A stretch of DNA of 64,000 nucleotides from Gracilariopsis chorda (Eukaryota > Rhodophyta > Florideophyceae > Gracilariales > Gracilariaceae), in the NCBI GenBank assembly GCA_003194525.1, contig NBIV01000185.1, positions 108,595 to 172,594 on the forward strand, read 5' to 3'. Positions 3,775-60,422 of the stretch are shown one piece after another (positions within the stretch are counted from its first letter, which is position 1; every line of letters begins with the position of its first letter). The notes under the pieces are model-generated. The model had not been told where the DNA came from. It saw only the letters and a program-made list of their open reading frames with translations, and made no database searches. Both the position numbers and the translations under genes were made by a program.

Positions 3775-3797
3775 CAACCGCAACCTCAAGGGTTGCC
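3775..3797 (-). other. Polypurine-tract-like site of gypsy copy 1
   Basis: Immediately before the 3' LTR in element sense the sequence is G-rich with interspersed T (GAGGTTGCGGTTG; GAGGTTGGGGTTG in copy 2). It sits where the plus-strand primer of LTR elements is expected. It is not a clean purine run, so the assignment rests on position. Confidence 0.4.
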
Positions 3798-3869
3798 ACG
3801 CCGCGGCAATCTGAAAACCTAACCTTCCATCGGGCGCGCAATATACTTCGTCAAACGACGGGCGTGTAT

Positions 3870-33053: not shown

Positions 33054-35414
33054 ATGGATGCAAGCGCGGGAATGAATCCGACCACTGAGAGCGAGGCAGC
33101 CAATCTTGTCTCTCTCTCGGAGCAGAACAAAGAGGATGTGAAGCTTCCGAGCCCAGAGGACATCTTTTTGCAGAAGATGATGTCTAATGTCTCGCAAAAC
33201 ATGGATTTGCCAGGGAAGTTGCACTTTGATCCAGTCGCAGATATCCAGGAGCTCGAGCGTCAACAATCGATTATGCGGGTTTCGGAAGGCAGAAAGAAGA
33301 GCTTGGCAGCCCCAGATAAGAACAATGTTTCTGAATCTCTCACCCAGAATCATGGATCAGAACAGAGTTTAAAGAAACCCGTGGGAACCAACTGCACTGT
33401 CAGGAATGCGAACACTCAGACCAAGATAAACGAAAGTAGTCAAGACAAGCATGGCAGTACAACCATGTCGAATGATCCTCAAGATTCTGACGCAGTTACA
33501 CTTGCAAACCTCCAATTCTTGAAAGGATTTCTGGATGACAACGGGAACGTGAGATCCAAAAACCAAGCACAACTCACGAATCCAGGTCAAGCAAACAAAC
33601 CTCCAAGATATTCAGCACGAAGCTTGCAGAAAAAGGATTCCAGAAAGGGGTCCTCACTCAATCATCCAAGAAAACCGTCGGGGATTTCCAAACCCAGAGG
33701 AAATGAGAAGCGGCAAGAGAGGGGTGCTCCAATCCCGGGGACACACAACAATAACTTAAATCCCAAGAACACACATACACATAGGGCCGGAAAGAACAGG
33801 TGTATAGACCGCAATGTGGTCGAGCAGGTTCCGTCACGAGGCCAGATTGCCCTTCTACATAATGATGGTGCGTATGAACAAGCCATGAAGTTCCTAGATA
33901 CTAAATGGCTCTCAAATGGGCACGCTGCAGCTGGAACACCTTCGAACGTGCAAGCTCGACCTATACCAGCTGCTGCACCAGACGCAGCAAAGCGTGAAGT
34001 GGTAGGATTATGGAACGATATCGGAACCGCTATTCCGATAGTGAATAATCGCAGATTGAATTCTTGTCCGACCCAATCATGGGCGCCCCCCCCAGCCCAA
34101 CATGTTGCATCAAGGCCTTTGGAGACCAGTGACGATTCTGGTCCACATTACGTACAAAATCCATCCTTTCGTGCAGTGTCGGCCTTGATGAACGATGAAG
34201 TTTACGACAGCGCAATGAGAGCCTTCGAAACTCTCCAATCAACAGCATGGAGAAATGCAAGTGTTAAATGTCGAAACGGAAGGCAGAATGCCCACAAAGC
34301 ACAAGCGCGCTCAACTGAGACCCCTTCAAAGAGGATTGGGATACCGAAAAGCCGCAAACAAGTCCGTCGTTCTTCATTTTTTTGCGAGTCCGCAGGTGCC
34401 GGTAGTACAAAACCTGCTGCTCGCGCATCTCATGGAATCCGTACAAAGCTGCCTTCAGTAGACCGAACGCGTTCAACGCCACAAGCTCAGTCGGTTCGTA
34501 GCAGGTTACATCGGCCGCTTGTTAATAACGAAAGGTATCATCCCGAATTGCAATCTGCTAGCAACTTTCATGCAACTGGAATTCGTGCGACTCAACCTTC
34601 GCTAACATATCCCACTCAGCCTCGCCACTCCCATGTCCCTCAAGCACTCCATCTGGCACCGGGAATGGAGGCAGCCTCTACACCATATGCTTGTCTTCGA
34701 AGCACGACTGTCGGGCATCCTTCGGCATCGAACGGTCAACACAACATCGCTTTTCCAGCCCAGTCATTTATTCCTTGCAATACAATAGCAACGGGTCAAT
34801 ATGCGCAGTCCACAAACATACCCACCACACACTTTTATCACACTGTACCTCATCTGTCTTCTTTCAATACTGGTCACGAGCCTATTCTTCAGTTTAATAA
34901 TACTATTCCTTCCACCTCGGCTGGAACTGATCGATATGTCCAAAACTCTCCATACCTCCCCGTACCGAACTACCAGCAGCCTCTCCACAATGTGAGTGCA
35001 ATTGCTGCAAATCAACATTACAATCGAGCCATTGATACGAATCTCATTCCAGCTTACAATGCAACTGACAGCGCTCAAAACGCGCAGACTCTGCAAGCTG
35101 CATCTACAACAAACTACCGTTGGCGTCAAGAGTACGAACAAACTGTGCCAAACGTGACGTTGCCTACGGTTCCGGCACATATACCACTCGATCGGATTGC
35201 TCAGATGAATCAAAGCGCTACTCAGCATATATCTAGTGGCAATCGACTTGCATGGGCAGATCAAAACAAAGCCACAGCAAACTCACCACCACCCGTGCCC
35301 GACCTGCATGCATTTCTTACAAACTTGCAACAGAGTCCACAAACTACCGGCAGCATTCCTGCCGCTCAAACAAAACAAGCCGCGAATGCTTACAAACCAC
35401 ACCAACGTGGTTAG
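33054..35414 (+). CDS. Low-complexity protein of unknown function, 786 residues
   Basis: A long intact frame; the ATG at 33054 is the first in frame, and the open frame before it starts only at a GTG. The N-terminal part is acidic and helical ('LPSPEDIFLQKMM', 'VADIQELERQQSIMR'). The middle is basic and Ser/Arg-rich. The last 300 residues are rich in Gln, Asn, Thr, Pro, Ser, Ala and Tyr and predicted to be disordered, of the kind found in RNA-granule proteins. A motif of about 20 residues occurs twice, 'LLHNDGAYEQAMKFLDTKW' (about 266-284) and 'ALMNDEVYDSAMRAFETLQ' (about 377-395). No signal peptide, membrane segment or known domain is visible. A role in mRNA metabolism is only a guess from composition. 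No paralogue elsewhere in the window. Confidence 0.75.
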   Translation: MDASAGMNPTTESEAANLVSLSEQNKEDVKLPSPEDIFLQKMMSNVSQNMDLPGKLHFDPVADIQELERQQSIMRVSEGRKKSLAAPDKNNVSESLTQNHGSEQSLKKPVGTNCTVRNANTQTKINESSQDKHGSTTMSNDPQDSDAVTLANLQFLKGFLDDNGNVRSKNQAQLTNPGQANKPPRYSARSLQKKDSRKGSSLNHPRKPSGISKPRGNEKRQERGAPIPGTHNNNLNPKNTHTHRAGKNRCIDRNVVEQVPSRGQIALLHNDGAYEQAMKFLDTKWLSNGHAAAGTPSNVQARPIPAAAPDAAKREVVGLWNDIGTAIPIVNNRRLNSCPTQSWAPPPAQHVASRPLETSDDSGPHYVQNPSFRAVSALMNDEVYDSAMRAFETLQSTAWRNASVKCRNGRQNAHKAQARSTETPSKRIGIPKSRKQVRRSSFFCESAGAGSTKPAARASHGIRTKLPSVDRTRSTPQAQSVRSRLHRPLVNNERYHPELQSASNFHATGIRATQPSLTYPTQPRHSHVPQALHLAPGMEAASTPYACLRSTTVGHPSASNGQHNIAFPAQSFIPCNTIATGQYAQSTNIPTTHFYHTVPHLSSFNTGHEPILQFNNTIPSTSAGTDRYVQNSPYLPVPNYQQPLHNVSAIAANQHYNRAIDTNLIPAYNATDSAQNAQTLQAASTTNYRWRQEYEQTVPNVTLPTVPAHIPLDRIAQMNQSATQHISSGNRLAWADQNKATANSPPPVPDLHAFLTNLQQSPQTTGSIPAAQTKQAANAYKPHQRG

Positions 35415-35874
35415 ATCATTGGTTCGCAACCAGTTGCCGCTGCATTTACGTCAATAGCACTAATTGCAACTGCGCGTGAAAACGGCTCACCGCCGATAAA
35501 CACGTATCGTGTAATCTCGGTGCTGAGCAAAATCAGGACCACGAATGAATCCACTACTACGAAAATCGAGACTTGTACGTGTGACGTGCTTAAGAGTAGA
35601 GGAGCGCGTGCGAAGACCTTTTGGAGGCAGATACTGCAAAGCAATTTGTAAAGCACTGAAACGAAACTGCGGAGTATCCATGAACACGGACAATGTCCCA
35701 AGCGATGTTTGACGTGGTGTAGTAGAATGACATTGTATTTCGGTCGCTTAGTGTTTTTGTGGTTGCATCGAAATGAGTTCAAAATGGCTGAGTTGTGCAA
35801 GATGCAAAATTCCTAGCCGAATCTTGCCGTTGCTTTAAACACATTTTGTTGTAGAACTTATGTACAAATATGTT
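35415..35874. other. Unassigned; 3' region of the low-complexity gene
   Basis: Minus-strand frames (35411-35800) overlap this span but lack motifs. No repeat recognised until the inverted-repeat arm begins near 35.88 kb. Confidence 0.4.
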
Positions 35875-35879
35875 TCGGA

Positions 35880-37200
35880 TCATGACCGTTTTCAAGCACC
35901 CGTATGTTATCAGTTCACAGCGGCAGGCCAAGGGTTATCAAACGATATCAACCGGTAAGCTACTTTCGTACCTTGGGTACGTTGGGAGTTAAAATTGGAA
36001 TCACTCGTGAAGCTTCTCAGGGAGATCATCTGGCTTACAGCCTCCCACAAAAGAATTGAAAATCTCATGGCATTGTGTTGAAGGATTGTGAAGGAAAATA
36101 CAGTGATGAAATCCACAGAAGTCAGTAACATGTCGCAGAGTTGTCAGAACTCTGCATTTGCGTGACCTGCGAGACCAGAGTAACGAGGTATGGTTTGAAG
36201 AGGACAACTTCGGGTTACGAAATGAGATTCCCCTTACACGCTTCCTTTGATAATATGTAACTAACCCGGAAGAAAGGCCACATGCTCGCAGTCTGCCAAT
36301 GAAGAGACACCCGTCACCTCCCAAATCCAGAAAGTTGTAGCCGCTTTTAGTATAAGACAGAAGAACGCGCAACCGAAAACAATTCAGTAGCTTTTTCAAT
36401 TACAATCAAATGAAAAGTGCTGCGATAAAAGCTAGAAAACTGCTGACACGTAAGCATTTGAGTGCTTCACCAACGCCAGCTGAACTCATTTTCTAGCTGA
36501 CACTCTCCACTTGTGCTTGGAACACTTCAAGAATAACATGGAAAAGTAAAATTGAACGCACATATTCCAAAAGTAAGCTCATTCTCCGACAAGTCGGGGT
36601 TTAAATAGCGTGCCGGAATCGATTGCAGCCGGGCGGGGGTTGGTGCATCAGCCCCCGCCCAGTGGGAAGCTCTGCGAGGATGGGTGCGGGAGTTGGGGGT
36701 TCGATTCCCAGGAGTTGAAAACCGTAAACTGCACTCATCACTCGCTTGGAATTGGAAGCAGGGTTGGGGAGTGATGCCCCTGGTCCTTGGATACGGGCAC
36801 TGATCCCCCTGGTCCTAAAAGAAGATGAAGGTGAAGAGGGTTGGGGAGTGGCGACCCCAGTCCTAGGATACGGAGCATTGATACCCCCGGTCCTGAACGG
36901 AAACTGGGGCTCGGGGGGTTGGTGCCCCCAGTCCTTGGAGTACCGAGGGAGTGGCGCCCCTCGGATCCTAAATTTTGTTTTTCGTTTTTTTGTTAGATTT
37001 TCCATTTTTGGTTTTTATCACGTGGACAGCATGGACACGAGTGCCATACATAGCTACATGTGGAGTATCCCTTTACCTAGCGCAGTATGTATAGTTCTGG
37101 AGAGGCTTTCGCAAGCGGTGGCGCGGAGTTTCTGAACAAGCATCGAAGGCTAACTTTGCGCGGAGCAGCGGGGATGACGGCCATTGTGGCCTCTTCACAA
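35880..37200 (+). repeat. Left arm of long inverted repeat around the Sel1 nest
   Basis: This segment matches the reverse complement of about 46880-48140. The match is patchy (very roughly two-thirds identity) from the outer end to 36.47 kb, nearly perfect from about 36483 to 36990, and diverged again to about 37200. Landmarks in order: CAGTAACATGTC, TGCATTTGCGTGACC, TTTGAAGA..ACAAC.TTCGG, CTTTGATAATATG, CCAGAAAGTT, then the core. The outer part is open on the minus strand (36001-36399, 132 codons) with 'LLWSRRSRKCRVLTTL', faintly FLYWCH-finger-like, so the arm may include a transposase gene remnant. Exact outer ends and flanking duplications could not be fixed. Confidence 0.8.
36483..36990 (+). 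repeat. Near-identical core of the left inverted-repeat arm
   Basis: About 510 bp pairing with 47082-47589. In the central 370 bp I find a single one-base length difference (CGGGCAC against CGGGGCAC). It contains a 9-bp GC hairpin GGGCGGGGG...CCCCCGCCC (36631-36660), a tRNA B-box-like GGTTCGATTCC (about 36705) and four variants of a GG(A/T)CC...GG phrase. Long minus-strand frames here (36601-37005) mirror those of the right arm and are probably composition artefacts. Confidence 0.88.
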
Positions 37201-37528
37201 CAGAAAAGGTGAAAGAAGCTTTTCTCAGCGAGCGCCCAAGGTTCCCGCCCATGGCAGTAGGCAGTAGCCTGGGCGCTTGCTGAGATAGGTGTCTTGACCT
37301 TTGGTTTCTGGCAAACACATTAAGCCTTCTTCTTCTACTGTGGGCCCCTGATGTCTAACGACAACATAAGAGTGAAACATAAGTCATTTTCTCCCAGCAG
37401 GACAAAAAGAATTTCAGCGGCCACATTAAGCTTTTGTTGGTCATTTCGTGCATCGAATGATCACTGCAGGCATGGACTTCACAGTCGTTGCCGCATGAAT
37501 CATATATGTCTCTGATAATTCTAGGGGC

Positions 37529-38563
37529 ATGGTGACAGCGTCAGCTGTACACCTTTTCTCACGCCTTCATCTCCGCCATGATCTGCGTGCAGGACACTCC
37601 GACGACGTATTGCAACGGCACCGCTTCCCATCTCGATGGCCAGCTCGTATAGGGCAAAAGCGATCCGCCTTCACGTGGTGTGCCTGTCTTCCCATTGCTT
37701 TAGGGACGCGAAACGATCTGCGGATGGGTCTCAACGGAGACCAGCATAACTAGTGTACGCATAACAGAGAGGGAGAGAGCTCGTATAACATTTCTTTTGT
37801 ACATTTCAGCATTCCTCTCAGCCCCGTCCGCTCCAGATTCTAGCAAAACGCCCAAACTGTAGGTGGCCGCCCTCTCTAATAGTTTGTTCAAACATATTCC
37901 TTTGCTCGTAATCTATCATCGAGAGACCGGCTTCGCGCTCCCGGCAGTAAAAGAGCTCAGCTGCTCCTTGTAGCAACGGTACCACAGCTGTTTCACCCGC
38001 TTAAGGTCTTCAGCAGCTCTTGGTTCTCCATTCTCTAGTGGAACACCCACCCCACACTCACGCCTGCGCTCAGATCCTTAGTCTCTCCAACTAGTTCTCG
38101 TACAAACGCTTCGCAAGCTGCACGTCCTTCTCAATTCTGTCCGCTCTTACGAACGAGTTACCCTCACCGTTGCATCAAGTGCCTGGGCTTTGTTCACGTT
38201 CTACGGAATCCTAAGCATGTCATTCTCTGAACAGATCTCTGTTCCCACCTCTAATACCTCTGCCCTGCTGACAAAATCTCGATTCAAAGCACCATATTCG
38301 GCTTCCATGACCGATCCCTCGTCGCGCTGTACAAGTTCCTTATGTGATGCACTACTGAATGGTAGAGATTGCCCGCCCTCCATCGCTTTCTCAAGTGAAT
38401 CTCTCTTCACCATTCGCCCTAAGTTCATGATGGATCTTTCATCCCACCCATTCCATATCATTGGGCCCGTCGTACCACGATTCCTGTCTCTATCTGTCTC
38501 TGCTAGCGCATCGCATCTCCCAGAATATCCTCCTGGTGCCGATAACGCAAGGCAACGTATCAA
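37529..38563 (-). pseudogene. Sel1-family protein relic (leftmost)
   Basis: Minus-strand pieces. At 38563-38201 a block with 'GPMIWNGWDERSIMNLGRMVKR' and 'LEKAMEGGQSLPF' aligns with the junction of the first two ORFs of the neighbouring gene at 42.0 kb. At 37891-37700 one Sel1 unit reads 'YSLGVLLESGADGAERNA'. Nearly all of the protein between these is missing, so this is a deleted copy. It points towards the left inverted-repeat arm. Confidence 0.7.
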
Positions 38564-38949
38564 CTTCTTACAAGATGCTGCGCTGCAGTTCCGGGAGACA
38601 TCTTACTCCCGGGGAGATGTATTCCAATTATGATTTCTATCAGTCATTGGGTGAGACGGGAAGTCTGGGTGTAGCGGCGGTTATGACATGGGCATTGACG
38701 AACTTGCACGCACTGAGGACGACCGTCACCGCCAGGTTCCTGCGCCTATAGTCAAAGCTGCGGTTTCGGATAGTAAAGCAGTGAGCGTAGAAGTGCAGCG
38801 GTGAGCAGATATCATGAAGCGATCAGTGTAGCTAAAAGGGTCGGCAAGACGGTGTGGCCAGCAGAGATGACAAAGTGTTTTGGCGCTAGAACGCAGATGT
38901 GATAAGGGGCGTCAAAGTTGTCGTAGCCCATATGGAACCACGATGCTAA
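38564..38949. other. Spacer between Sel1 copies
   Basis: No feature recognised beyond short frames. Confidence 0.35.
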
Positions 38950-40609
38950 ATCGCTTTGCGTGGATACCGTTGTGGATACCGTTGTGGTGAGGGACCACTG
39001 CAAGGTAGCGAGTCCCGCTCAGGGCACATGCAGTTCCGCCCGTCGAGGTGTGCCGACCTTCCGAAAAGGCTACGCCAGATGAGGAAGCCAAATGGCACAG
39101 CATCAACCGCCACTCCTTCCGCTCCGTTCACCAGCAGATTTCCAAGATTGACATCGCGCTAACCTTCCCGCCCTCCTCAATGGCCCTTTCGTATAGACCC
39201 TTTCCACGCACAGCATCAACAGCAACTCCTTCCGCTCCCTCCATCAGCAGATTCCCCAGATTGACCATTGCATTGACATCCCCGCCCTCCTCGATGGCCT
39301 TCTCGTACAGAATCTTTCCACGAACGGCATCAACCGCCACACCATCCGACCTATCGACCAGCAGAACGGCCAGATGTACCATTGCGTTCGTGCTACGTCC
39401 TTCTTGGTGAGCCCGTTCGAGCAGCCTTTTTTCGTATTTTCCGTTCTGGGCAGAGAAATCTCTTTCATTGACGTCAGAATCATTGTGACCTAATCTTGAT
39501 CCCTCTTCCTCATCCCCGTTTCTTATTCTATTTGTACCGAGATCCCGTTTCATAAACTTCTTGTTTAAAGCCGCCCCCCCTGCAAGAGTTTTGCGGGTGC
39601 CCTTGCTCTGACAGAGTCTGTAGACGCGGTAGAAACGGGCATAATCGACAACCACGTCCATCGACTGAGAGCAACTTAATATCACCTTCATCAAATTCCA
39701 AGCCTCATATATTTTCCTGTTTCCTCCAAATCGTGAAACTAATAACAGCATCTTCGTTAATCTGGACACTTCCATCTTTCTCTCACATCGATAAATAAGC
39801 TTCTCACAAGTCTTTAACACAACTCCTCTTAGTGCCAGCAACACCTCTGGACTTATTCTTGATTCAGTGAGCCGGCCAAACGGAATAATGTGTCCAACGA
39901 ATATGTCTAACAGTTCAACAGCGAGTATGTCCGGTAAACTCTTACGACATAATATCATTTCGACGCCCTTCTCCAGTGCTTCCGTGCTACCAAACCCACC
40001 TACAGCCGCCTCGTACAACAGCAGCGCCCTCTCGACTTCACTGAAGTCTCCTCTACTCAACAGGTCTGCGTTCTTCACCAGATCTCTTCCCATCGATTCC
40101 TCTCCGTCTCCGTCGATCCTTTCTATTTCGCTTTCTTCAATCCTATACCCTTCCCGAATCGAGTCTCGAATCAGGTTCATCACATGAACTACTATAAGCA
40201 TCTCTGCATCGCTATACGATACAGCTGTCCTCTCATGCTTTGAAAACCCAAGACCTATCAACACGCTTCCTAATTCAAGATTTGGTGATCCCTTCCATAT
40301 CATCCTTCGACTTTCCTTCAGAAGTCCACTTCGTTTCACTTCAAATAGACAAAACTCAACTCGAAACGGCCGCCATCCCCTCCAAACCAGGAACTTTTCG
40401 TTGGTCAAAGTTTTGTACATCTCGAACTCAGTATCCATTGTCCCATTCGATGGTATCACGTCCAGTGAACTCTCCATGTTGTGTTCTCTTTGCCTTTCCT
40501 TCATACCCTCCAGTCGACCAGTGAATGCATCCCGCCACCACTGCCACACAAACTCTCTTTCATCTCCGAAAGACAGCGAATCATCTGCATTAATTCTTCC
40601 ATCTAACAA
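38950..40609 (-). CDS. C-terminal Sel1-repeat part of a large Sel1-family gene
   Basis: A 493-codon frame (40609-39128) opening at a TTG; the first ATG lies 35 codons in, so the real protein begins upstream. The first two-thirds is unassigned but conserved in the copy at 45.7 kb ('FVWQWWRDAFTGRLEGMKE', 'NEKFLVWRGWRPFRVE'). The C-terminal part holds Sel1/TPR-like units ('AMVHLAVLLVDRSDGVAVDA', 'AMVNLGNLLMEGAEGVAVDA') of about 36 residues with the G/A-A/L-LG pattern. Sel1 units form alpha-alpha solenoids used as protein-binding scaffolds. After 39128 another unit ('NGAEGVAVDAV') reads in a different frame to about 38950, so the 3' end is also broken. Confidence 0.7.
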
Positions 40610-40682
40610 AATGCTAGCAAACCGAACTTGAATTCAACAACATTGCGGTGCACAAACTGGTTCAATCACAACTATGCTGCTG

Positions 40683-42071
40683 TCAATTTGTATCGTCTGT
40701 CGCCACCCTATTTCCAAGTTGTTGTTCAGAGCAGCATCCAATACAGATCCCGTACCAATCTCTCGTTCTCACAGCCGGGCACTCCACTCCGCTTTCGTCT
40801 TTCACCTCTACGCTTAGGGATGAAAATGAAAGAACACACAGGGCTATAGCCTCAAACATTTCTGGACCATATTGTGGAGTAGTTTTCTTGTTACATTCTC
40901 CCTGAATTTGTACGGACTCTTCAAAGTGCTCCTGTAGTTCCCACAATAAACGAACTTGAAATTGTCGTGATCTCAGAGTTGATTTCATAGCTCCGTATTT
41001 GAAAGAACGTGATAACGTGTCGCTCAACACGCATGATTTGCTCATACTATACACCCCGTTTTCAGTATCTTCAAGGCTTTGTCGAAATCTCGAACTGCCG
41101 TTTCGTTCGCTGTCAACCTCGCCCCTAAGTTGATATACCCATTCTGCAAGGTGCGATCGAACAGTTTCCATCTTATAGCCCATAAACGCCATCCCGTAGC
41201 TCACACCCCAGGTACACTTGCAATCATCATCGCCAAACTGGTACCTCAATCTCAGCTTCCCTAATTCCTTGTGTACATTTTGCAAACGAACGTCGCAGCT
41301 CTGCGCCGTATGGCCATCGCTGTTTTCAGTTTTTGTGCTTCGATCCGAAGCATCAGCGTACTTGACCTGACCAACGTCTTCATATTTTCTTCCCCTGCAA
41401 AGCACAGACCATTTCTCATTCAACTCCAACACGAATCTCAATCCATCTCCGGCTATAATTTCTAGCCACACATCCACAACTTCTAAAACGTGACTGTTTC
41501 TAGAAATCACTCCTCTCCAATTCGTCTGGAAGGGGAACGATGGCAAAGCTATTTTCTGTTCACTTTCATTGCCTTTCTCATTATCTTCGATCCCTGAATG
41601 ATATCTAACGGGGCACGAAAGCTGCTCCCTTAGGTTCCTCATTGCTTGGTCCAGTGACTCATCATAAACAAGTCCATCGTCAGCAGCGGAACCATCTGCG
41701 CTGTGTCCACTGTCAGTTCCCTCTTTTCCGTTAGACTTTTCATGCTTCTCTAGATGCTCTTCTCGCAGCTTCACAGATCTTCGTCCCATGTAAATTAATA
41801 TCGTCAGCCATTCAAGCATCTCCACGCCCAGTTGCTCAGTTTCTGAACAAAACTCCTTCCGCACTAGTAGGTTACTTACTTTGCTTAATAATTGCCGACT
41901 GAACTCGCGGTACCCCACGCCCATGTCTGATTCATCTTCGACCTGCACCAACGCCATGTGCGCTACAACAAATGGCAAACCCTCTCCGCTCTCCATTGCT
42001 TTCTTCAATAACCCTCGCTTCATAATTCTTCCGGAGTGTACATAGTCGATGTTTCGTCCCATCCACTCCAC
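40683..42071 (-). CDS. Middle part of the Sel1-family gene
   Basis: A 462-codon frame whose first codon is GTG, not ATG; it overlaps the preceding ORF by about 50 bases in another register. Its opening 'GRIMKRGLLKKAMESG' is the direct continuation of 'LWSGWDET' at the end of that ORF, as shown by the relic at 38.4 kb where both motifs sit in one frame. So one base was lost near 42030. The protein segment is acidic-basic mixed with no named domain; two weak hydrophobic stretches occur. Its end ('GICIGCC...ATDDTN') is likewise followed, one register away, by sequence leading to the next ORF. The whole is most simply one gene of about 1,300 codons broken by two or three small lesions. Confidence 0.65.
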   Translation of the reverse strand: MEWMGRNIDYVHSGRIMKRGLLKKAMESGEGLPFVVAHMALVQVEDESDMGVGYREFSRQLLSKVSNLLVRKEFCSETEQLGVEMLEWLTILIYMGRRSVKLREEHLEKHEKSNGKEGTDSGHSADGSAADDGLVYDESLDQAMRNLREQLSCPVRYHSGIEDNEKGNESEQKIALPSFPFQTNWRGVISRNSHVLEVVDVWLEIIAGDGLRFVLELNEKWSVLCRGRKYEDVGQVKYADASDRSTKTENSDGHTAQSCDVRLQNVHKELGKLRLRYQFGDDDCKCTWGVSYGMAFMGYKMETVRSHLAEWVYQLRGEVDSERNGSSRFRQSLEDTENGVYSMSKSCVLSDTLSRSFKYGAMKSTLRSRQFQVRLLWELQEHFEESVQIQGECNKKTTPQYGPEMFEAIALCVLSFSSLSVEVKDESGVECPAVRTRDWYGICIGCCSEQQLGNRVATDDTN

Positions 42072-43009
42072 AGCATTGGTTCCATTCTCTTCTTTTCACC
42101 TTGCAGTTCAGGCCACAACTGCATGATACAGGTTGATAGCACTTCCGATGCAAAGTATGATGCGCGTTTCTCCCATTCTTTTAATCCTTTTCTACTCTCA
42201 TCATGCTCCTTTCGATCTCTGGGGTTTGCCAAAACACTGAACTCCGACATCCAGGCCCGCAGTCCTTGAGCCGCAAAAACAATTGCCCAGTTTATCCATA
42301 CTTCAGCCGGGCGGTTTGGGACTTGACGCAGTTTCCCAGCTGGTCCAATCCCAACGCTAAACCGCAGACTGTCGCATAACATAACCCCCACACAGAAGAT
42401 TGTCTTTGCCAAGAACAAAAACCATTCCCACATTAGATGGACGACTCCCAACCAGGTAAAGGTGTCCGGCATCCTTTGAGTTCTCAATTGTATGGCATCG
42501 CCATACTGCACATGGCACACCGTGTCACCATGTATGATTTGGTTGTCAACGATGCTGTCATTCACCAGCATCTCATCCGACATTTCCCTAGCACTTCGGC
42601 AATTTTTTTCTACGCGATGACGTCGTTCCTTATCCGAGAAAATGAACGTTATTCCCATTGCCTCCAGTGCATCAATACTCTCAGCGCACCATGTGCGGAA
42701 CACGTAAAGCTGCCACAGTCCCCACGCAGACCGAGCGCCATGCAGCAGCGCAAACAACAGCGCTGCGATGGCAGCACTTCCTTCTTGCCAGTCATTTGCG
42801 GTATACTGAGTTGTGGCGTAAAACAAGATGTAGATGGCCGGAATTATGGAACAAAGCAGATTGATGTACCCGTCAGTGCGTGTGCGACGAACTGTTTTCC
42901 ATTTGTCGCTAATGAAGTCCTTGGTGCTGAAGGCAGTCCATGGCATAAATGCAGCCACGTACGCCGGGATTACGATGTACCATTTGTCGCTGAGCGCTGC
43001 GATTTTCAT
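42020..43009 (-). CDS. N-terminal membrane part of the Sel1-family gene
   Basis: 329 codons from an ATG at 43009-43007. Hydrophobic segments: about 10-25, 50-66 ('INLLCSIIPAIYILFYATT'), 79-95, 190-215 ('VVHLMWEWFLFLAKTIFCVGV') and 240-255, giving perhaps four or five membrane passes. No family is recognised. Together with the ORFs downstream it would form a membrane-anchored protein with a C-terminal Sel1 solenoid. ER-resident Sel1L of the ERAD pathway combines a membrane anchor and Sel1 units, but there the order is reversed (solenoid first), so homology is not claimed. Frame is lost at the last codons (see 42071). Confidence 0.65.
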   Translation of the reverse strand: MKIAALSDKWYIVIPAYVAAFMPWTAFSTKDFISDKWKTVRRTRTDGYINLLCSIIPAIYILFYATTQYTANDWQEGSAAIAALLFALLHGARSAWGLWQLYVFRTWCAESIDALEAMGITFIFSDKERRHRVEKNCRSAREMSDEMLVNDSIVDNQIIHGDTVCHVQYGDAIQLRTQRMPDTFTWLGVVHLMWEWFLFLAKTIFCVGVMLCDSLRFSVGIGPAGKLRQVPNRPAEVWINWAIVFAAQGLRAWMSEFSVLANPRDRKEHDESRKGLKEWEKRASYFASEVLSTCIMQLWPELQGEKKRMEPMLWSGWDETSTMYTPEEL

Positions 43010-43561
43010 ATTGCTTTATACAGGGTAAGGAAGAGGACAGCAACACTCTGTGAATTGTGGCCTAACTTTGAAACAGCAGATTTCGACAATCTCAGATGAG
43101 GACTGGGAATTGTCAAAGCCAAGGATGGCAAGGTGGTGATCATTATCGCGGAAGGGTTTATGGAACACGGTGCCTTGCTAAATAGCGACCGATCGACGAA
43201 GTGTGCAAGTGTGGTGGACTGTTGGTGATCGCACTTTCGCTTCGTCGTTTTCGCCGTAGTCCTGGTCCTTGCTTGCGACCAGAACGCTCTCTGGCATTTA
43301 AGATCAATCGAGGAAGAATGAACACACTACAGGTGTAGATGGGTATTCTTGGTAGCAATGTTACCCCTTTTCCTTTGGTAGCCCTTCGGCGTATAGCCCC
43401 CGATAGAGCTCATCCAGGCCATTTGATCAGTCAGGGCCAACCATCCCGTTCTTCGACATGCTGTTGGGATACACATTAAATCTTGACGAAAGTCATCATT
43501 GTGCTGGAGCAGTCTTGGAACCTTGCGAGATTTCTCGATCAAAGCACCCGTTCACTAGAGT
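43010..43561. other. Spacer upstream of the Sel1-family gene
   Basis: No supported gene. By position it includes the promoter of the minus-strand gene starting at 43009. Confidence 0.4.
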
Positions 43562-45722
43562 TCAAAACTGCGGCATGAAGAACAATGCGTCCGGCAATTG
43601 CGTGCCGGAAGTCTGCTCACGCACATCAGCTATTCTGGTAACTTTGTCAGACCGCGAAACAAGACGCAGTGGGACGCGAAGAATTCCCGGATTGAAGCCC
43701 CTAAAAAGCAGTACGCTTCGCCCTCTCCTAAACAGAATGCCCACGCTCAACATCCTGCGGAACGCCTTCAGCTCCTTTCGAGAGCAGCTCTCCAAAGCAA
43801 AATATCGCATGCACACTTCCGCTTTTCTACAGTGCACGCACAAAGAGATCTGGAGCATGAAGTGCATCCGTTGCAATTCCGTCCGCACCTTTCGCGACAA
43901 GCTTACCAACACGAACCATTCCATTCACATCCCCGTCCTTCTCAATCTCTTGTTCATACATCACCTTCGCCCGAGCTGCATCTCTCATCACCTACCCTGC
44001 TCCACTGTCCAGGACGCAATCAAGGTTGTACATTGCTTCGGCACGGCCTGCTTTCTCGATTGCCCCTTCATGTAGCTCCATCGCTCGTAGTGCGTCCCTC
44101 TCGACACCGTCTGCCCCTCTTTCCAGTACAAATCCAAGATCATACATTGCAATTGCCTGCCCGCCTTTTGCAACTGCATTCTCAAGCAACTCTTGCACTA
44201 ATCACATCTTGTCCAACACTTTCTTCTGTGAACAGCAAAAAGCTAAGACCATGCATTGCGTACGCTTTTTCGCCTTCTTTTAACGGGTCGTTCATACAGC
44301 GCCTTCTCATGGATCGCATCTTTCTGAACCCCATATTCCCCACTGGCCAGTATATAAACAAGATTGAACATTGCTTTGACATGCCTGTGCATAGTGGCCA
44401 TATCAAACTGCTCATGGCACCCAGATGTGCAGCAATCTTAATGGCAGTTTTGGACAGATGCTTTACACGCATAGCATCCCTCTCAGCTTCATCTGCTCAA
44501 TTGGTTCGTAGAAGAGCGAGCTTGTACATTATTGCCATGGCATCTCCCCATTCGTTGATAGCTGTTTCGTGTAGAATCCATGCGCGCTTTTCATCTTTTG
44601 AAACCCCTATCGCTTCAACCCCAAACAACACTCCGGTGCGCCCGGATTGCTCGCTCATGAACTCATAGTCTGTTACTTGCGTCCTGTACAACTTTGTCGA
44701 GGTTATGATGGGAAAAACTGCCACTATTAGTGTCCTCGACATCAAGAGCCGTGTAGACCTTACGTTTCATTGCGCTTTCCTTTTCGTCCACCGTCTTTCG
44801 GAACAATCGGTTACCTTCTGTGCTGCGAACGAATTGTAGCAATCTAGCGCACATCCTCGTCACCTCAAACCATTCAAAATAGCACTAAACAATCTCCGCT
44901 TGGTTTTGAGGCACTTTCTCTCGTCTTCCTCAACGAAAAGTGATAGCAGTAGTATCTGGGATATTGTCGCCATCAACAACATTTTCAATACAACCGCAAA
45001 CAAGCTTCACACATGCTCTCTGCACAATTCCCATCAGCTTCCCCAGCGTTCGTGAGTCCGCTCTTGGTCCAGTCATTGGCCCAAACGGAACTATGCATCC
45101 AACGAACAGAGCAAAAAACACAAGAGCTCGCCTATCTGCTATGCTTCTACTGTTCAGTAACACTTCAGCATCCTTTTACAGTGCCTCTTCGTTTCCAGAC
45201 ACCCCTACCCAGTATTTCTGCGTTCGTCATGAGATCACTTCGCTTGGACTGCTCTCCATCTCGCTTCATATTCCGTATCTCTTTCATTGACCGTCCACTC
45301 TTGCGTAATCGAATCCCAGATAAAACTCATGGCATGTAGTACTACATGCGACAGTGCTTCTTTGCAGGATACACCTTGATTGAAGTACTTCGAAACCCCA
45401 AAAGACCTTGAAGTGTACCCGAACTCTATGTTGGTTGATGCCAGTCATCGTATCTCTCGACTTTCCTTGAGAAACTTACTTCGTTTCATTTCAAACATTC
45501 AAATCTCCATCCGGAACGGTCTCCACCCTTTCCAAACCACATACGTCTCGTTTGTCACGGGTCCTGCACGTCTCGAATTCGGCGTGAATGAGACCGTTTG
45601 ATGGTATCACATCAAGCGAAGCATGCATGCAGTGGTCGGCCTGCCATTCCTTTATACCCTCCAGTCGACCAATAAACGCATCTCGACACCATTCCCAAAC
45701 AAACTACGTGTGCTTTGGTCGC
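43562..45722 (-). pseudogene. Second copy of the Sel1-family gene (3' part), decayed
   Basis: Minus-strand sequence from about 45720 reads, over several frames, 'FVWEWC.DAFIGRLEGIKEWQ', 'SLDVIPSNG', 'VVWKGWRPFRMEI', 'FLKESRE', all colinear with 40.57-40.30 kb of the first copy. From 44750 to 43562 at least five Sel1 units follow ('AMYDLGFVLERGADGVERDA', 'AMYNLDCVLDSGAG', 'GKLVAKGADGIATDA', 'GELLSKGAEGVPQDV'). Frequent stops and shifts. More Sel1 units survive here than in the first copy, so the ancestor had a longer solenoid. Confidence 0.8.
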
Positions 45723-45867
45723 TGTGAAAAGGAAAACAAAGATTCGTATGGCTTGCACGCTTATGGCTTTAACTGTGCGTGTGCTCTGCCTGAAGGCCCT
45801 AACATGTCGCAACGGCGTTTAGCAACGCTTCTGGAATAAACAGTTATAGCTAGCGCTCAACAGATCT
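45723..45867. other. Junction between back-to-back Sel1 copies
   Basis: Short spacer; to its left Sel1 copies read on the minus strand, to its right on the plus strand. Confidence 0.4.
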
Positions 45868-46813
45868 GTGATGACAAGGGCGCCTTGCTTCTGTGCGCTA
45901 ACAAAGAACGGCGTCGGTCGCACAGGAAAGCTTCGGAGCCTACAGAAGCGAGGAAACGCGGAGGGACAGAGCGAAACTGCAATGTCCAGTCTACCCCTGC
46001 TACTTCAACTTGGAGCAGAAGGCGCAGAAAACGACGTAGAGTGTACTCGGAGTCTACGTCAGAAAGCCATCGGAACGTTTGGGCATACACGTGCAACGGT
46101 GAATCTGGGACTTCTACCGGTCAACAGAGAAAGTTTAACTCCAAACAACGCGACAAAAGCCAAGGTACTGTTCGAGATGGCCATAAAGGAGAGCAACGAT
46201 GCGGATGTTATGGTGAGAATTGATAGTTTGTTAGCCCGAGGAAGGGGGAGGGGGGGTGGGTGTTGAGAGGGACGAGCACCTTGCAAAGCGGTGTACGAGA
46301 GATGAGAGATCGTTAAAGAGACCAGAGATCTGAGCGCTATGGTTCGTGAGTGTTCTATAGAAGAAAAGAGCCCCTACTAGAGTCGAGTGAGACGTAGAGA
46401 GTGCAAAACAGCTGTACAAGTCTGCTGTTAGAGAGGTTGGTCGAGCTGATGCAATGACAAATGTAGCGTTTCTGCTACTGGGAGTTCCAAGTCGCCTTGT
46501 TCATAATGACACACAGCGCGAACGGAATCTATCTTGGCAAGCCATCGGATAGGGGGCTAATGCGAGCGCGATATGAAGTTTGGGCGTTTTGCTAGAGTCT
46601 GTAGAAGACAGGGTTGAGAGGAATGTTGAGGAAGCAGCGAAGTTATTCGCACAGGCCATCGTAGATAAAGGGAAGAAATGCAAACGTAATGATTCGTCAG
46701 GTTGGGTTGATTGGAAGCAGTGGTGGAGACAAAATTGCAAGTTCATAGAGCCCATCGTGGGCGATAAGCTTTTTGACCCTGGAGTTCAAATTACTCGGGA
46801 GATGCTCATGTAG
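45868..46813 (+). pseudogene. Sel1-repeat relic on the plus strand
   Basis: Pieces: 'LLLQLGAEGAENDVECTRSLRQKAI' (46005), 'TRATVNLGLLPVNRESLTPNNATKAKVLFEMAIKE' (46090), 'DAMTNVAFLLLG' (46445) and 'SLGVLLESVEDRVERNVEEAAKLFAQAI' (46570), then a hydrophilic C-terminal tail ending at 46813. Each is a Sel1 unit. Stops near 46266 and 46550 interrupt the frame. Its 3' end abuts the right inverted-repeat arm, just as the minus-strand relic at 37.5 kb abuts the left arm, so the region is symmetrical. Confidence 0.75.
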
Positions 46814-46879
46814 CGAGGTCTATCGCGCATTGATGTTAAGCGACGCATAGGTTCAAAATGATTACGTCAGGCGTAGTGT

Positions 46880-48140
46880 GTGAGGGGGCCACAGTGGAAG
46901 TCATCTTCGCTCCGTAACCTTTCTTCAATCCTTAGTAAACTCGTATCACGACCGACGAAGGTAGAGACCGCGAAGCTGTACGGTAGTACGCTTGGTAAAC
47001 ATGGACATGAGCACCAAAGATATGCCTTAGTAATCGTGTCCATGTGGTCCACGTGTTTAAAACCAGAAATCGAAAATCTAAAAAAAACGAAAACAAAATT
47101 TAGGATCCGAGGGGCGCCACTCCCTCGGTACTCCAAGGACTGGGGGCACCAACCCCCCGAGCCCCAGTTTCCGTTCAGGACCGGGGGTATCAATGCTCCG
47201 TATCCTAGGACTGGGGTCGCCACTCCCCAACCCTCTTCACCTTCATCTTCTTTTAGGACCAGGGGGATCAGTGCCCCGTATCCAAGGACCAGGGGCATCA
47301 CTCCCCAACCCTGCTTCCAATTCCAAGCGAGTGATGAGTGCAGTTTACGGTTTTCAACTCCTGGGAATCGAACCCCCAACTCCCGCACCCATCCTCGCAG
47401 AGCTTCCCACTGGGCGGGGGCTGATGCACCAACCCCCGCCCGGCTGCAATCGATTCCGGCACGCTATTTAAACCCCGACTTGTCGGAGAATGAGCTTGTT
47501 TTTGGAATATGTGCGTTCAATTTTACTTTTCCAAGTTATTCTTGAAGTGTTCCAAGCACAAGTGGAGAGTGTCAGCTAGAAAATGAGTTCAGCTGGCGTT
47601 CGTGAAGCACTCAAATGATTGCGTGTCAGGGTCGGTATTTTCCAGCCTTTATCGCAGGACTTTTTGAAAGAGCTATTGAACTGCATTTGGTTTTGTCCTT
47701 TTTTTTCCTTTAAAACTGGAGATCGGCAATAACTTTCTGGAATTCTGGAGATGCCGTCTCTTCGCTTACAGGCTGGCAGCACGTAGCTATCTGCCTAGTT
47801 GTTTATTCACATATGTTATCAAGGGGAGCATGCAAGGAGAATCATTAATTTCGAATCCGAACGTTGTTATCTTCAAACTCGGCACCACTATTCTGGTCCG
47901 ACGGGTCATGCAAATGCACATTTCTGAAGGTTCGGTGACATGTTGCTGATTTCAAGAATGTCATCTGTTTATGTTACATGGCAGCAGAGCGCAAAAAATG
48001 AAGAATTTCTTTTTGGGATGCAGTGCCGTATCTACTGTTGGTACCAACGGTACCGCTGTACCTGTGATGCTGATATCTCCAAATGTACGTTCCAAATGTA
48101 CGGGTGATGGTGACGTTATACATGCACATGATAGGAGAGT
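46880..48140 (-). repeat. Right arm of long inverted repeat around the Sel1 nest
   Basis: Reverse complement of 35880-37200 (left and right coordinates sum to about 84,070). Inner part diverged (46880-47080), core nearly identical (47082-47589), outer part diverged to about 48.1 kb. The mirrored hairpin is at 47412-47441. Confidence 0.8.
47082..47589 (-). repeat. Near-identical core of the right inverted-repeat arm
   Basis: Matches 36483-36990 in reverse complement. The plus-strand frame 46880-47545 (221 codons) lies across it, with Pro/Gly/Arg-rich 'RTRGI', 'YPRTG' phrases that reflect the DNA repeats; I do not accept it as a gene. Confidence 0.88.
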
Positions 48141-48416
48141 CTACCCTTTGTAACTTAGCGTATCGACGAGCCGACTCCGGTTGTGAAACGAGACTGACGA
48201 TGCATACCTATCCGAAGGAGAGATTCATTACGGAAGGGCCAAAAGGAACTGGTTTAAAGATATCGTTTATCAAGGGGGGTCAGGCTGTAGCGACACAGCC
48301 GGTAAAAAGCCAGCGCGCACACAAGAGACTCGACCAGCACAGAACTCCCCCATCCCACATAAACTATCCATAAAAGAAAAAAACGTTCCATGTCCATGCC
48401 CGCACCCGCGCAAAAG
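48141..48416. other. Intergenic, 3' of the aminotransferase gene
   Basis: No gene. Includes the 3' non-coding region of the minus-strand gene. Confidence 0.4.
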
Positions 48417-49772
48417 TCACGCTGCAACGTCGGAAAGCACAGTCTCAAATATGCTGAGCACGCTCTCTACTTGCTGGTGTGAGATGACCAACGGAGGGAC
48501 AAATCGAACTACATGCTTACCAGCCGGTACCAACAAAAGGCCGCGATCCATAGCCTTAGCAACAACATCAGATGCGGCAATACCCTGCAGCTCCACACCC
48601 AGGATGAGTCCCAAACCGCGCACCTCCTTCACGACGCTAGAGAACTTCCGGGCCAAATTTTGCAAGCCCGTCATCAACTGAGCGCCCCGCTGCTCTGCGT
48701 TCTGCAACACGCCAGAATCAAGTTGGTTCGCGACGGCGAGACCGGCCGCAGTTGCCAATGGATTGCCGCCAAACGTACTAGCATGATCTCCCGGTTCAAA
48801 CACATCGCACTTGGCCGTGCAACACATGGCACCGATAGGTACACCTCCGCCCAGTCCCTTTGCTAGCGTGAACACATCCGGTTGTACACCGGTGTGGTCA
48901 AAGCCCCACAGCTTGCCTGTGCGACCGACGCCAACTTGCACTTCATCACACATGAGCAGGGCGCCTGTGTCATCGCAGATCTGTCGGGCGGTAGCGAAGA
49001 ACTGTTTGGAGGCTGGGTGAATGCCACCCTCGCCCTGACATGCCTCCATGAGAATGGCTGCAAGATTGTCTCCGATGGAGTCGGCAAGCTGTTTGAGCTC
49101 TGCTGCATCGTTGTAGGTGACGTACTGAAAGCCCGGAACAAGCGGCCACCAGTTGCGGTGATACTTGGGCTGTCCTGTAGCTGTGAGCGTGGCAAGCGTT
49201 CTACCGTGGAAGGATTGGTGCGCAGTGATGATGACGGGGATATTAGTAGGATCAGAGCCATGTCTGATGTGCCAATATTTCCGCGCAAGCTTAATAGCGG
49301 CTTCATTGGCCTCCCCTCCAGAGTTGCAGAAGAACACCTTGTCGGCCGGCGAGTTGGACACGAGCCAGGCTGCCAACGCGGCCTGCTCGGGGATGTAATA
49401 GAGGTTGGATACGTGGTTGACACGGGACATTTGATTGGTGACAGCTTTGATGAGGGCGGGATGAGCATGACCGAGGGTGCAGGTCGCTATGCCGGCCACG
49501 CAGTCGAGGTATCGTTTGCCGCGCGTGTCGAAGAGCTCTGCGCCGTTTCCATGCGACATGGCGACTGCGTAGCGCGCGTAGGTGTTCATGACGACGGAAT
49601 CCAGGTCTGGCGGAGCGGGGCTCTGCTGCGGCTGGGCTGCGACGGCCTTGACCGGGGCGCGGATCGCGGCCGAGCGAGGGCTTGGCTGTCGGGGTGCGAA
49701 CGGCGACGAAGCGCCTGAGACGAGGAATGGACGCGCGGCAAGGGGCGTGGAGAGACTGAAAGCGAGCGCCAT
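48417..49772 (-). CDS. argD: Acetylornithine aminotransferase, plastid-targeted
   Basis: Class III PLP aminotransferase of 451 residues; converts N-acetylglutamate semialdehyde to N-acetylornithine with glutamate as donor in arginine biosynthesis. Residues about 1-50 (MALAF..., rich in Ala, Ser, Pro, Arg) look like a plastid transit peptide. The mature enzyme starts near 'NTYARYAVAMSHGNGAELFD'. Signatures: 'FCNSGGEANEAAIKLARKY', 'HGRTLATLTATGQPKY', 'ILMEACQGEGGI', 'LLMCDEVQVGVGRTGKLWGF' and the PLP lysine K305 in 'TLAKGLGGGVPIG'. These favour ArgD over ornithine or GABA transaminases. The open frame extends 152 codons upstream, but the extension is a Pro/Cys/Ser low-complexity reading of a hexanucleotide repeat, so the ATG at 49772-49770 is chosen. 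Divergent from the CCA gene. Confidence 0.95.
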   Translation of the reverse strand: MALAFSLSTPLAARPFLVSGASSPFAPRQPSPRSAAIRAPVKAVAAQPQQSPAPPDLDSVVMNTYARYAVAMSHGNGAELFDTRGKRYLDCVAGIATCTLGHAHPALIKAVTNQMSRVNHVSNLYYIPEQAALAAWLVSNSPADKVFFCNSGGEANEAAIKLARKYWHIRHGSDPTNIPVIITAHQSFHGRTLATLTATGQPKYHRNWWPLVPGFQYVTYNDAAELKQLADSIGDNLAAILMEACQGEGGIHPASKQFFATARQICDDTGALLMCDEVQVGVGRTGKLWGFDHTGVQPDVFTLAKGLGGGVPIGAMCCTAKCDVFEPGDHASTFGGNPLATAAGLAVANQLDSGVLQNAEQRGAQLMTGLQNLARKFSSVVKEVRGLGLILGVELQGIAASDVVAKAMDRGLLLVPAGKHVVRFVPPLVISHQQVESVLSIFETVLSDVAA

Positions 49773-50035
49773 TGCGGGGATGGAGGACGGAGAAGGGGAC
49801 GGGACCGGGGGACAGGGACAGGGACAGGTACAGGGACAGGGACGGGGACGGAGACGGGGACGGAGACGGAGATTGGAACAGAAAACAGGAAAGGACAGAG
49901 GAGAGATAGATGACGGCAGCCGACGTGGCGCAGAGATGCGCCCGGGATGCGGCGCTGGCAGGCGGAGATATAATAAATAGCCTTTGATGAGGCGCACTGT
50001 AGACGGTAGCAGCCGCCAACGCGAGGGCAGCGACG
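49773..50035. promoter_or_regulatory. Shared divergent promoter region
   Basis: 263 bp separate the start codons of the aminotransferase (minus) and the CCA enzyme (plus). It includes the GGGACA-type repeat on the aminotransferase side and a 'TATAATAAAT' stretch at 49969-49978, roughly 200 bases upstream of the aminotransferase ATG and 60 bases upstream of the CCA ATG. Confidence 0.5.
49797..49881 (+). repeat. GGGAC(A/G) hexanucleotide microsatellite
   Basis: Imperfect tandem GGGACA/GGGACG/GAGACG units, about 13 copies, within the presumed 5' untranslated region of the aminotransferase gene. Confidence 0.85.
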
Positions 50036-51742
50036 ATGAAGTCGCGGCCAAGTGAACTGCTGTTCTGCGCGTCGTTCGCGCCGGTGCGCCGCGGTTCGCG
50101 CGGTCCGCTCCGCGCCGCAGTCCGCATGAAGCGTCCGCGTTCGCCGTTCGCCAGCAGCAGCAGCACCATGAGTCCGCCCGAGCCCAACGCCTCTCGGGTT
50201 CGTCGCACGCCGCCTCATCGTCCGTCACACCCCGTCGTCGCGCTCTCGCCGCTTGAAACTCGCCTGTTTCACTTGCTGCGTTCCGTCGCGGACAGCGTGC
50301 ATCCGCAGCCCACTTTGCGCGTCGCCGGCGGCTGGGTGCGTGATAAGTTGCTTGACCCTTGCTCCGTCTCCGAGCACGTTGACATTGACATTGCGCTTGA
50401 TACGATGCTTGGGATTCATTTTGCGGAACGTATAAACCGTTATCTTGACGAGCATCACATGCCGCACGCTTCTGTCGGCCTTATTCAGAAGAACCCTGAC
50501 CAGAGCAAGCATCTGGAAACTGCGACGATGCGCGTCATGGACGTCTGTCTCGACCTGGTTAACCTGCGTACCGAGACGTACTCGCACGATTCGCGCATTC
50601 CCAACATCCGAATAGGTACCCCGTACGAAGACGCCATGCGTCGAGACCTCACAATCAACGCCCTCTTCTACAACATCAACACCCGCTCCGTCGAAGATTT
50701 CACCCATCGTGGCATGGATGACATTCGCGACCGCATCATTCGCACCCCACTTCCGCCTTTAACCACCCTGTTAGATGACCCGTTGCGTGCGCTTCGCGCC
50801 ATTCGCTTTGCTTCCCGTCTCAATTTTAGTTTCGACGCCCCGTTGTTCGACGCCTGTCGCAACTCGCGCGTCCACGATGCGCTCGGAGCAAAGGTATCAC
50901 GCGAACGCATTTCCCATGAAATTGACCGAGTTGTTGCCTGCGATAACGCGCCCCATGCAATCGGTTTACTGGTCGAGCTCGGTTTGTTTCCGATCGTCTT
51001 CCGTCTGCCCCCGCAACGAAACATCCTCAACGACGCACACGCGCCGTCTGATTTTCCCACCTTAGCGCTTGGCGCTTTGCTCAACTTACACACCATGAAA
51101 CCGCCCGATAACTGTGCTGCCCCACGCAAGGTTGTGCGCTACGCCGCACTGCTCTCCCCGCTGGCCACGGTCAAGTGTTCGCACGTTCAGTTTGGCAAGA
51201 AGAGGAAGAACGTGCCTGTCGCCCAGTACATTTTAAGACATGAACTTCGCCTCGGCGCGAAGGATGTCACCGAGGTGTGCGCCCTGCATGCGGCTGCACT
51301 CAATTTGCAGAAACTTGTACACAACGACTCCGACAAACTTGACAGGCTGCAGACCGGCCGGGTCATCAGGGCGGCCGGTCCGTTTTGGCGTAGCGCCCTT
51401 CAGATTGCGCTCGTCATGGAACTGCGTCCCGCAAAGGCGGAGAACACTTTTGCCGCTGGCATGGGAGAACCCTCTGATCAGATGGGCAAAGACTGTCGGA
51501 TGCTCGTCGATACCTACCGCTCCTTTGGAGACAAGGTCGAGAGCATGGGCCTGGAAGGAGTATGGAACATCAAGCCCATTATTGATGGAAATGATTTGCT
51601 CAAGTTGTTACCGCGTCTGAAGAAAGGTCCGCTCGTGGGTACCATTATGAAGGAACAGATTGACTGGATGGTTAAACACCCTAACGAGGGCACTGCTGAA
51701 ATCTCGGACAGGATACTGCACCAGTATAAACAATACCGATAA
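50036..51742 (+). CDS. CCA1: CCA-adding tRNA nucleotidyltransferase
   Basis: 568 residues, class II CCA-adding enzyme that builds the 3' CCA end of tRNAs. Motif A: GGWVRD (98-103) and the metal-binding D116-x-D118 in 'HVDIDIALD'. Then 'RRDLTINALFYN' (202-213), the DP-x-R-x-x-R segment 'DDPLRALRAIRFASRLNF' (247-264) and 'KVSRERISHEI' (about 290). The C-terminal half is the helical tRNA-binding part and is larger than in bacteria, close to the fungal length. Met1, Met31 and Met45 are all in frame before the domain; residues 1-30 are Arg/Ser/Ala-rich and could target an organelle, while the later starts would give nuclear or cytosolic forms, as known for yeast CCA1. The use of alternative starts here is inference. 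Confidence 0.95.
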   Translation: MKSRPSELLFCASFAPVRRGSRGPLRAAVRMKRPRSPFASSSSTMSPPEPNASRVRRTPPHRPSHPVVALSPLETRLFHLLRSVADSVHPQPTLRVAGGWVRDKLLDPCSVSEHVDIDIALDTMLGIHFAERINRYLDEHHMPHASVGLIQKNPDQSKHLETATMRVMDVCLDLVNLRTETYSHDSRIPNIRIGTPYEDAMRRDLTINALFYNINTRSVEDFTHRGMDDIRDRIIRTPLPPLTTLLDDPLRALRAIRFASRLNFSFDAPLFDACRNSRVHDALGAKVSRERISHEIDRVVACDNAPHAIGLLVELGLFPIVFRLPPQRNILNDAHAPSDFPTLALGALLNLHTMKPPDNCAAPRKVVRYAALLSPLATVKCSHVQFGKKRKNVPVAQYILRHELRLGAKDVTEVCALHAAALNLQKLVHNDSDKLDRLQTGRVIRAAGPFWRSALQIALVMELRPAKAENTFAAGMGEPSDQMGKDCRMLVDTYRSFGDKVESMGLEGVWNIKPIIDGNDLLKLLPRLKKGPLVGTIMKEQIDWMVKHPNEGTAEISDRILHQYKQYR

Positions 51743-60378: not shown

Positions 60379-60422
60379 CAACCCCAACCTCAAGGGTTGC
60401 CACGCCGCGGCAACCTGAAAAC

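Follow-up and report, generated by a model that had tools for sequence, protein, structure and literature searches.

The window analysed here is a 64,000-nt stretch of the red alga Gracilariopsis chorda (C185:108595-172594, where C185 is contig NBIV01000185.1), and the searched genome comprised 91.3 Mb in 1081 contigs. One phycobilisome-family match outside the window, a weak one of 28.1 bits, fits a red alga, as does the size of the genome, and the window itself is eukaryotic in character, with retrotransposons of the long terminal repeat type. In the window, a nest of broken Sel1-family genes is enclosed by two inverted arms. Each arm carries a copy of a structured element at its core, and a 797-amino-acid (aa) open frame, which had no Pfam or NCBIfam match, stands beside the left arm (Table 1). 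Plain positions are those of the window; positions after a contig name are those of that contig.

Table 1. Features in and around the Sel1 nest (window positions).
Feature	Position	Strand	Basis or remark
797-aa frame; the left arm is its downstream flank	33021-35414	+	C185 array has 99% identical copies
Left arm: downstream flank of the 797-aa gene plus structured core element	36118-37040	+	inverted match to 47034-47953
Putative gene-conversion tract in left arm, inner end approximate	36454-36991	+	site counts, permutations
Structured dispersed element, left copy, 390 bp	36602-36991	+	14 copies found genome-wide, conserved pairing
Sel1 relic 1	37739-38464	-	residues 338-416 and 1442-1560 of 2081-aa relative, tblastn
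Sel1 copy 2, longest, broken into three frames	39066-43015	-	residues 26-1468 of 2081-aa relative
Sel1 copy 3, C-terminal half, broken	43719-45703	-	residues 851-2075 of 2081-aa relative
Piece of the adjacent class-III aminotransferase gene, in inverted orientation next to relic 4 and touching it	45838-45932	+	75.5% over 98 nt to 48910-49007; gene named by Pfam
Sel1 relic 4, sister of relic 1	45928-46672	+	residues 1307-1548 of 2081-aa relative
Right arm: inverted copy of left arm	47034-47953	-	blastn and binned alignment
Structured dispersed element, right copy	47081-47470	-	inverted counterpart of left copy

Self-comparison with blastn revealed a single strong inverted pair in the region, 47034-47953 against 37040-36118, with 86.2% identity over 943 columns. 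Its two ungapped inverted blocks, of 355 nt and 197 nt, were both 98% identical. The likeness was concentrated in the middle of the arms: 36441-36991 and 47081-47631 matched in 542 of 552 columns (98%), and the outer flank 36118-36440 was 65-74% identical. In bins of 50 columns, left-right identity did not exceed 56% before about 36107, lay at 46-72% between that point and 36440, reached 90-100% over 36441-36990, was 86% up to 37040 and fell to at most 52% thereafter. The inverted pair of the original prediction was thereby confirmed, but its arms, which had been put at 1.2-1.3 kb reaching out to 35880 and 48140, are only about 0.92 kb long, because direct alignment drops to 56% or less beyond 36107 and 37040. 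Nor is the homology limited to the core, a possibility that the prediction had raised against itself, since 36118-36601 and 36992-37040 align as well.

The contents of the nest were mapped by tblastn with an intact relative on contig C57 that has an open frame of 2081 aa. Four Sel1-family pieces were found between the arms, in agreement with the predicted minimum of four copies or relics, and none of the four is a full-length open gene. Copy 2 matched Pfam Sel1 with an E value of 3.2e-06 and 27.9 bits, under the cut-off of 30.7, and a 1343-aa part of the C57 relative matched PF08238 with an E value of 4.2e-66 and 11 Sel1 stretches. Relics 1 and 4 indeed aim their 3' ends at the nearer arm, as had been noticed, although two relics would do so by chance about 1/4 of the time. 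Local alignment was more telling: relics 1 and 4 scored 156 against each other and 42-55 against copy 2 or copy 3, whereas copies 2 and 3 (score 121) were each other's closest among the four pieces; the maxima of 20 shuffles per comparison, in five comparisons, were 36-43. The spacers between relic and arm also aligned, more weakly, with a score of 47 against 36 for the best of 50 shuffles. Because the relics are sisters and the spacers align, the mirror symmetry is real homology, extending inward beyond the predicted arms to about 38134 on the left and 46263 on the right. Unrelated features (arm, spacer and Sel1 relic) thus align in the same order on both sides. On these alignments, the mirrored unit is the series Sel1 3' part, spacer and arm, at about 36118-38134 and 46263-47953. 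The sister relics and aligned spacers support the second option of the original prediction, an inverted duplication of a Sel1 gene together with its downstream sequence.

The left arm is continuous with the downstream flank of the 797-aa gene, of which at least three further copies, 99% identical, lie on C185. They belong to a tandem array at C185:27551-62946, in which two adjoining 8.8-kb units are 99.9% alike and a third interval is 14.4 kb. The match between array and window was unbroken over window positions 31251-36985, with 98.9% identity over 31251-35781 and 87% over 35781-36985, and the array has about 380 extra bp. At the first array element (about C185:29051), the upstream flank was unrelated and the repeat unit began exactly at the element start, as would be expected if unequal exchange between element copies had built the array. 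Array pieces C185:27551-53000 and 59237-62946 contained no Sel1 match at an E value of 1e-3. The original prediction had named single occurrence of the arm sequence, away from Sel1 genes, as a refutation, and the core and the left-arm flank do occur in that way. Genome match numbers for Sel1 and the 797-aa gene were at least 26, at least 105 and at least 11.

The array copy served as a third sequence in an informative-site test of the two arms. Over 36118-36440, the left arm agreed with the array at 70 sites and with the right arm at 12, and the right arm agreed with the array at 15 (12/97 left-right). Over 36441-36601 the corresponding numbers were 4, 37 and 1 (37/42 left-right), and in the core, 36602-36985, they were 2, 18 and 0. 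The two flank segments, 36118-36440 and 36441-36601, differed with a Fisher p of 1.4e-16, and the best switch of relatedness fell between 36451 and 36457; in the entire alignment, none of 2000 permutations produced a switch of equal strength. Relatedness measured against a third copy therefore switched within the arm, as expected of gene conversion. At the switch, left-array identity dropped from 0.88-0.91 to 0.68-0.83 and left-right identity climbed to 0.94-0.96. The sharp switch at about 36454 indicates that the arms exchanged about 540 bp, and the drop in left-array identity just where left-right identity climbs indicates that the left arm took the sequence of the right. The core alone would not prove exchange, because it is conserved in other copies too.

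We consider it probable, from comparison of these sequences, that the nest arose by an inverted segmental duplication with later conversion between the arms around a decaying Sel1 cluster. An old inverted duplication would have copied a Sel1 3' part, the spacer, the structured element of 390 bp and some of the sequence downstream of the 797-aa gene, leaving mirror copies around the cluster that diverged to about 62-74%. Later, about 540 bp around the element would have been overwritten, right arm onto left, by conversion between the inverted copies. Similar pairing between copies of the element probably gave rise to the tandem array of 8.8-kb units found elsewhere on C185, and the Sel1 genes would be passengers of the rearrangement. 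Because crossovers between inverted copies invert the segment between them, the prediction is that the 10-kb nest may occur in flipped orientation in other individuals. The nest looks like a rearranged gene cluster of an ordinary kind, duplication plus conversion being already well known.

Several observations weigh against this history or narrow its support. The 98-nt aminotransferase fragment beside relic 4 implies a history more complex than one duplication, and the spacer alignment exceeds its shuffles only modestly. The site test used a single reference, and the right arm, compared with that array copy, was 93-96% identical within the core and 68-73% in the flank. The claim of conversion is carried mainly by 150 bp outside the element, because the identity of the core, 36602-36991, could reflect constraint or homogenisation. 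The array search for Sel1 covered all but C185:53001-59236, an interval that belongs to the array region. About 17 kb ahead of the array, at C185:12228-12467, there is moreover an N-terminal relic resembling Sel1.

The first option of the original prediction was a large DNA transposon with long terminal inverted repeats and Sel1 genes as cargo. The two inverted arms around the nest invite this idea, as do the intact Sel1 genes elsewhere, which are near-identical and have unrelated upstream flanks. However, the left arm is not an end but is continuous with the 797-aa gene's flank, and arm identity peaks in mid-arm, not at the outer tips. Of the 14 core copies found, only two belong to the arm pair and 12 lie outside it, and the flank too occurs elsewhere, with no Sel1 match in the array pieces examined. 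A covariance-model search for the element covered the window and 45 of 77 loci, 27 of them Sel1 loci, and it was present in 0/27 of these Sel1 loci (each searched with about 1.5 kb per side). A Pfam scan of 20 frames in all included 18 of the 68 listed frames of 35000-50500, and no transposase match was found in the 16 scanned frames overlapping the nest or arms, a result that applies to the longer frames and from which broken relics may escape. In its simple form the transposon is rejected, the inverted repeats not being at the very ends of the unit, and we give it almost no credence; duplication plus conversion takes its place.

Independent insertion of two 390-bp elements, in opposite orientation and amid unlike surroundings, would fit the occurrence of the element at unrelated sites, for example twice around the Utp14 gene on C18, where alignment stops at the element ends. 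It is nevertheless very unlikely for the nest, as the arms align beyond the element (36118-36601 and 36992-37040) and related relics and spacers follow further inward. A more serious version accepts the inverted duplication but does without conversion, and ascribes the 98% middle to selection that constrains the element and its promoter. The likeness of the element between right arm and array, high in contrast to the flank, and the conservation of pairing across nine copies are as constraint would have them. Yet 36441-36601 lies outside the element and was 94-96% identical between left and right arms against 68-83% between left arm and array; constraint common to these copies does not fit an excess there, and we regard this version as unlikely.

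The core element itself was sought with a 30-base hairpin pattern allowing up to 3 mismatches, which located 14 places: six on C185, two each on C18, C66 and C55, and one each on C214 and C421. As the hairpin pattern is almost self-complementary, every place matched on both strands. The same 14 places were recovered by a 3'-end pattern that allowed 1 mismatch at most, and 13 of the 14 by a B-box pattern that allowed at most 2; reversed-pattern controls found 0. No decayed or truncated copies were detected within the mismatch limits searched, beyond which more decayed ones may lie. The element is about 290-390 bp long and falls into two subfamilies; members of one subfamily are 87-100% alike, and members of different subfamilies 70-74%. 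The two C18 copies, one on each side of the Utp14 gene, were 97% identical over 424 bp and could be aligned only across the element, which thus disperses with exact ends. No convincing target duplications were seen by eye at the flanks of the 14 copies, and the nest itself has no defined outer ends.

The left copy contains a TATA-like motif (36602-36607), an A-box-like motif (36656-36666), a B-box-like motif (36698-36708) and a T-run end. A TATA-like AAATA start was present in 14/14 copies (the script required it), about 54-63 nt before the A-box-like motif, and the A- and B-box-like motifs were 42 nt apart in 13 of the 14 copies and 41 in one. The two C55 copies differed in their A-box-like letters. 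ARAGORN found no transfer RNA (tRNA) in the window, and Rfam gave no window match above threshold, the best of 5 sub-threshold matches having an E value of 0.32. As to coding potential, two overlapping frames in the element had no Pfam match, and several gaps between subfamilies were not multiples of three. The hairpin had 0 matches in viral contigs, and the part of the open literature searched on red-algal Sel1, short interspersed elements (SINEs), structured RNAs and Gracilariopsis repeats contained no recognised description of the arm element.

Conservation of RNA pairing was analysed in 9 of the 14 copies, the other five being 99-100% alike to one of the nine. With a consensus structure of 67 counted pairs, derived from the same alignment on which pairing was scored, 98.2% of 603 cells were paired, and 7 of the 67 pairs had changed on both sides (19 such cells). 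None of 500 shuffles reached the observed percentage paired, cell count or covariation score, and 17 of 500 reached the both-sided pair count; a measure of further pair types pointed in the opposite direction, with 497 of 500 shuffles as high. Pairing fell to 61-62% when partners were slid by one column, and it was 98.2% on the + strand versus 81.9% on the complement. Folding of the single sequence gave a z score of -3.45 on the element strand, which 0 of 100 shuffles equalled, and of -2.21 on the complement, which 3 of 100 equalled.

tRNA-derived SINEs may carry T-rich tails, and RNA genes of the U6/SNR6 type, transcribed by RNA polymerase III (Pol III), have a TATA motif plus internal A and B boxes. 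The element shares with the former its size, exact-ended dispersal, tRNA-like spacing of the A- and B-box-like motifs and T-run end, but it differs in having 14 copies, none decayed within the limits, a TATA-like 5' edge in all of them and no clear target duplications; the many copies, truncated or decayed ones among them, of a tRNA-derived SINE were not seen. It resembles the latter in its TATA-like motif, box spacing, T-run end and conserved pairing with compensatory change, and differs in its lack of an Rfam match, its exact-ended spread to unrelated sites and in being known from sequence alone. Exact-ended dispersal and box spacing thus favour a T-tailed SINE-like repeat, whereas the few copies, the lack of decayed ones within the limits, the internal TATA-like motif and the conserved pairing favour an undescribed family of Pol III-type RNA genes, and between these two the choice seems about even. 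Should it be transcribed, it would found a new family of RNA genes; should it be a retroposon, it would be a SINE of very low copy number whose copies are unusually intact. The element may be what is new here, as a candidate RNA family that shows covariation, lacks an Rfam match and occurs in three settings of rearrangement, namely inverted arms, tandem array and dispersed copies. A bolder reading, which we hold to be less likely than not, is that the arm core belongs to an undescribed 14-member family of structured Pol III-type RNA genes that spreads whole with its own TATA-like start, its inverted copies converting and flipping the Sel1 cluster and its direct copies amplifying the 797-aa array.

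Among known systems, inverted-repeat recombination and gene conversion between segmental duplications come closest, and human inversions are reportedly mediated by inverted repeats. In yeast, one study describes inverted-repeat recombination in which the middle was inverted in half of the recombinants (PMC8748988). The window likewise has inverted copies kilobases apart, with diverged flanks enclosing a tract that is more alike, and inversion of the middle would be an expected product; it differs in that a small structured element stands at the centre of the tract and that polymorphism is only predicted. The Sp185/333 genes of the sea urchin are said to form a rapidly rearranging, repeat-rich immune gene cluster. 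The nest, too, is a clustered family with repeats and duplication, but an immune role is not indicated for it. In the red alga Asparagopsis, one report places Sel1-repeat proteins among 'potential pathogen receptors' (PMC12115072).

Two of the 14 elements flank the nest, and further copies on C18, C66 (2.4 kb) and C185 have a Sel1 match no more than about 20 kb away; C55, C214 and C421 had no Sel1 among the matches listed. We treated this association as regional, not functional, the contigs being too few for a good test. At C18:483863-517053, possibly an old paralogous region, a relative of the 797-aa gene (38%) is clustered with two copies of the element and one broken Sel1 gene. Another duplication, of at least 1.7 kb and 99.5% identity, joins C66:288612-290345 and C185:12234-13967 (loci L041 and L042), with an edge inside a Sel1-like N-terminal relic.

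Sel1 genes elsewhere also form inverted pairs. At C275:21533-61370 (23033+, 59292-) the partners were 99.97% identical over 3579 bp and 99.94% over 5238 bp, and at C6:461942-590434 (463442+, 587945-) 99.5% over 3990 bp; such near-identical pairs could be real palindromes or assembly errors. A palindromic layout common to Sel1 genes was rejected, as both pairs face their 3' ends inwards and the 27 Sel1 loci lack the element within about 1.5 kb. The open 2081-aa gene at C57:11970-18215 (L018, L044 and L071) has at least 19 nearly identical 38-residue repeats, and repeat number probably varies, because the frames of its paralogues are 1552 and 1591 aa long. A role of the repeats as a fast-evolving recognition surface was also discarded: pN/pS (nonsynonymous to synonymous change) among 19 C57 repeats was 0.52, with no sign of diversifying selection, in a test biased by a repeat-picking pattern that fixes 24 of the 38 residues. 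Three Sel1 genes on C57 and C38 (L018, L019 and L020) were 97-99% alike, and on the 5' side their likeness ends sharply at one common edge, some 235 bp ahead of the open frame, with unrelated sequence upstream; on the 3' side, two have a flank in common and the likeness of the third ends near the stop codon.

The long terminal repeat (LTR) retrotransposons of the window include ones that encode reverse transcriptase, RNase H and integrase and that we take, from domain order, to be of the Ty3 type. Two copies, at 2737-9420 and 59320-64000, were 97.5% identical over 4.7 kb, and the former has direct terminal repeats of 1.04 kb that are 98.2% identical.

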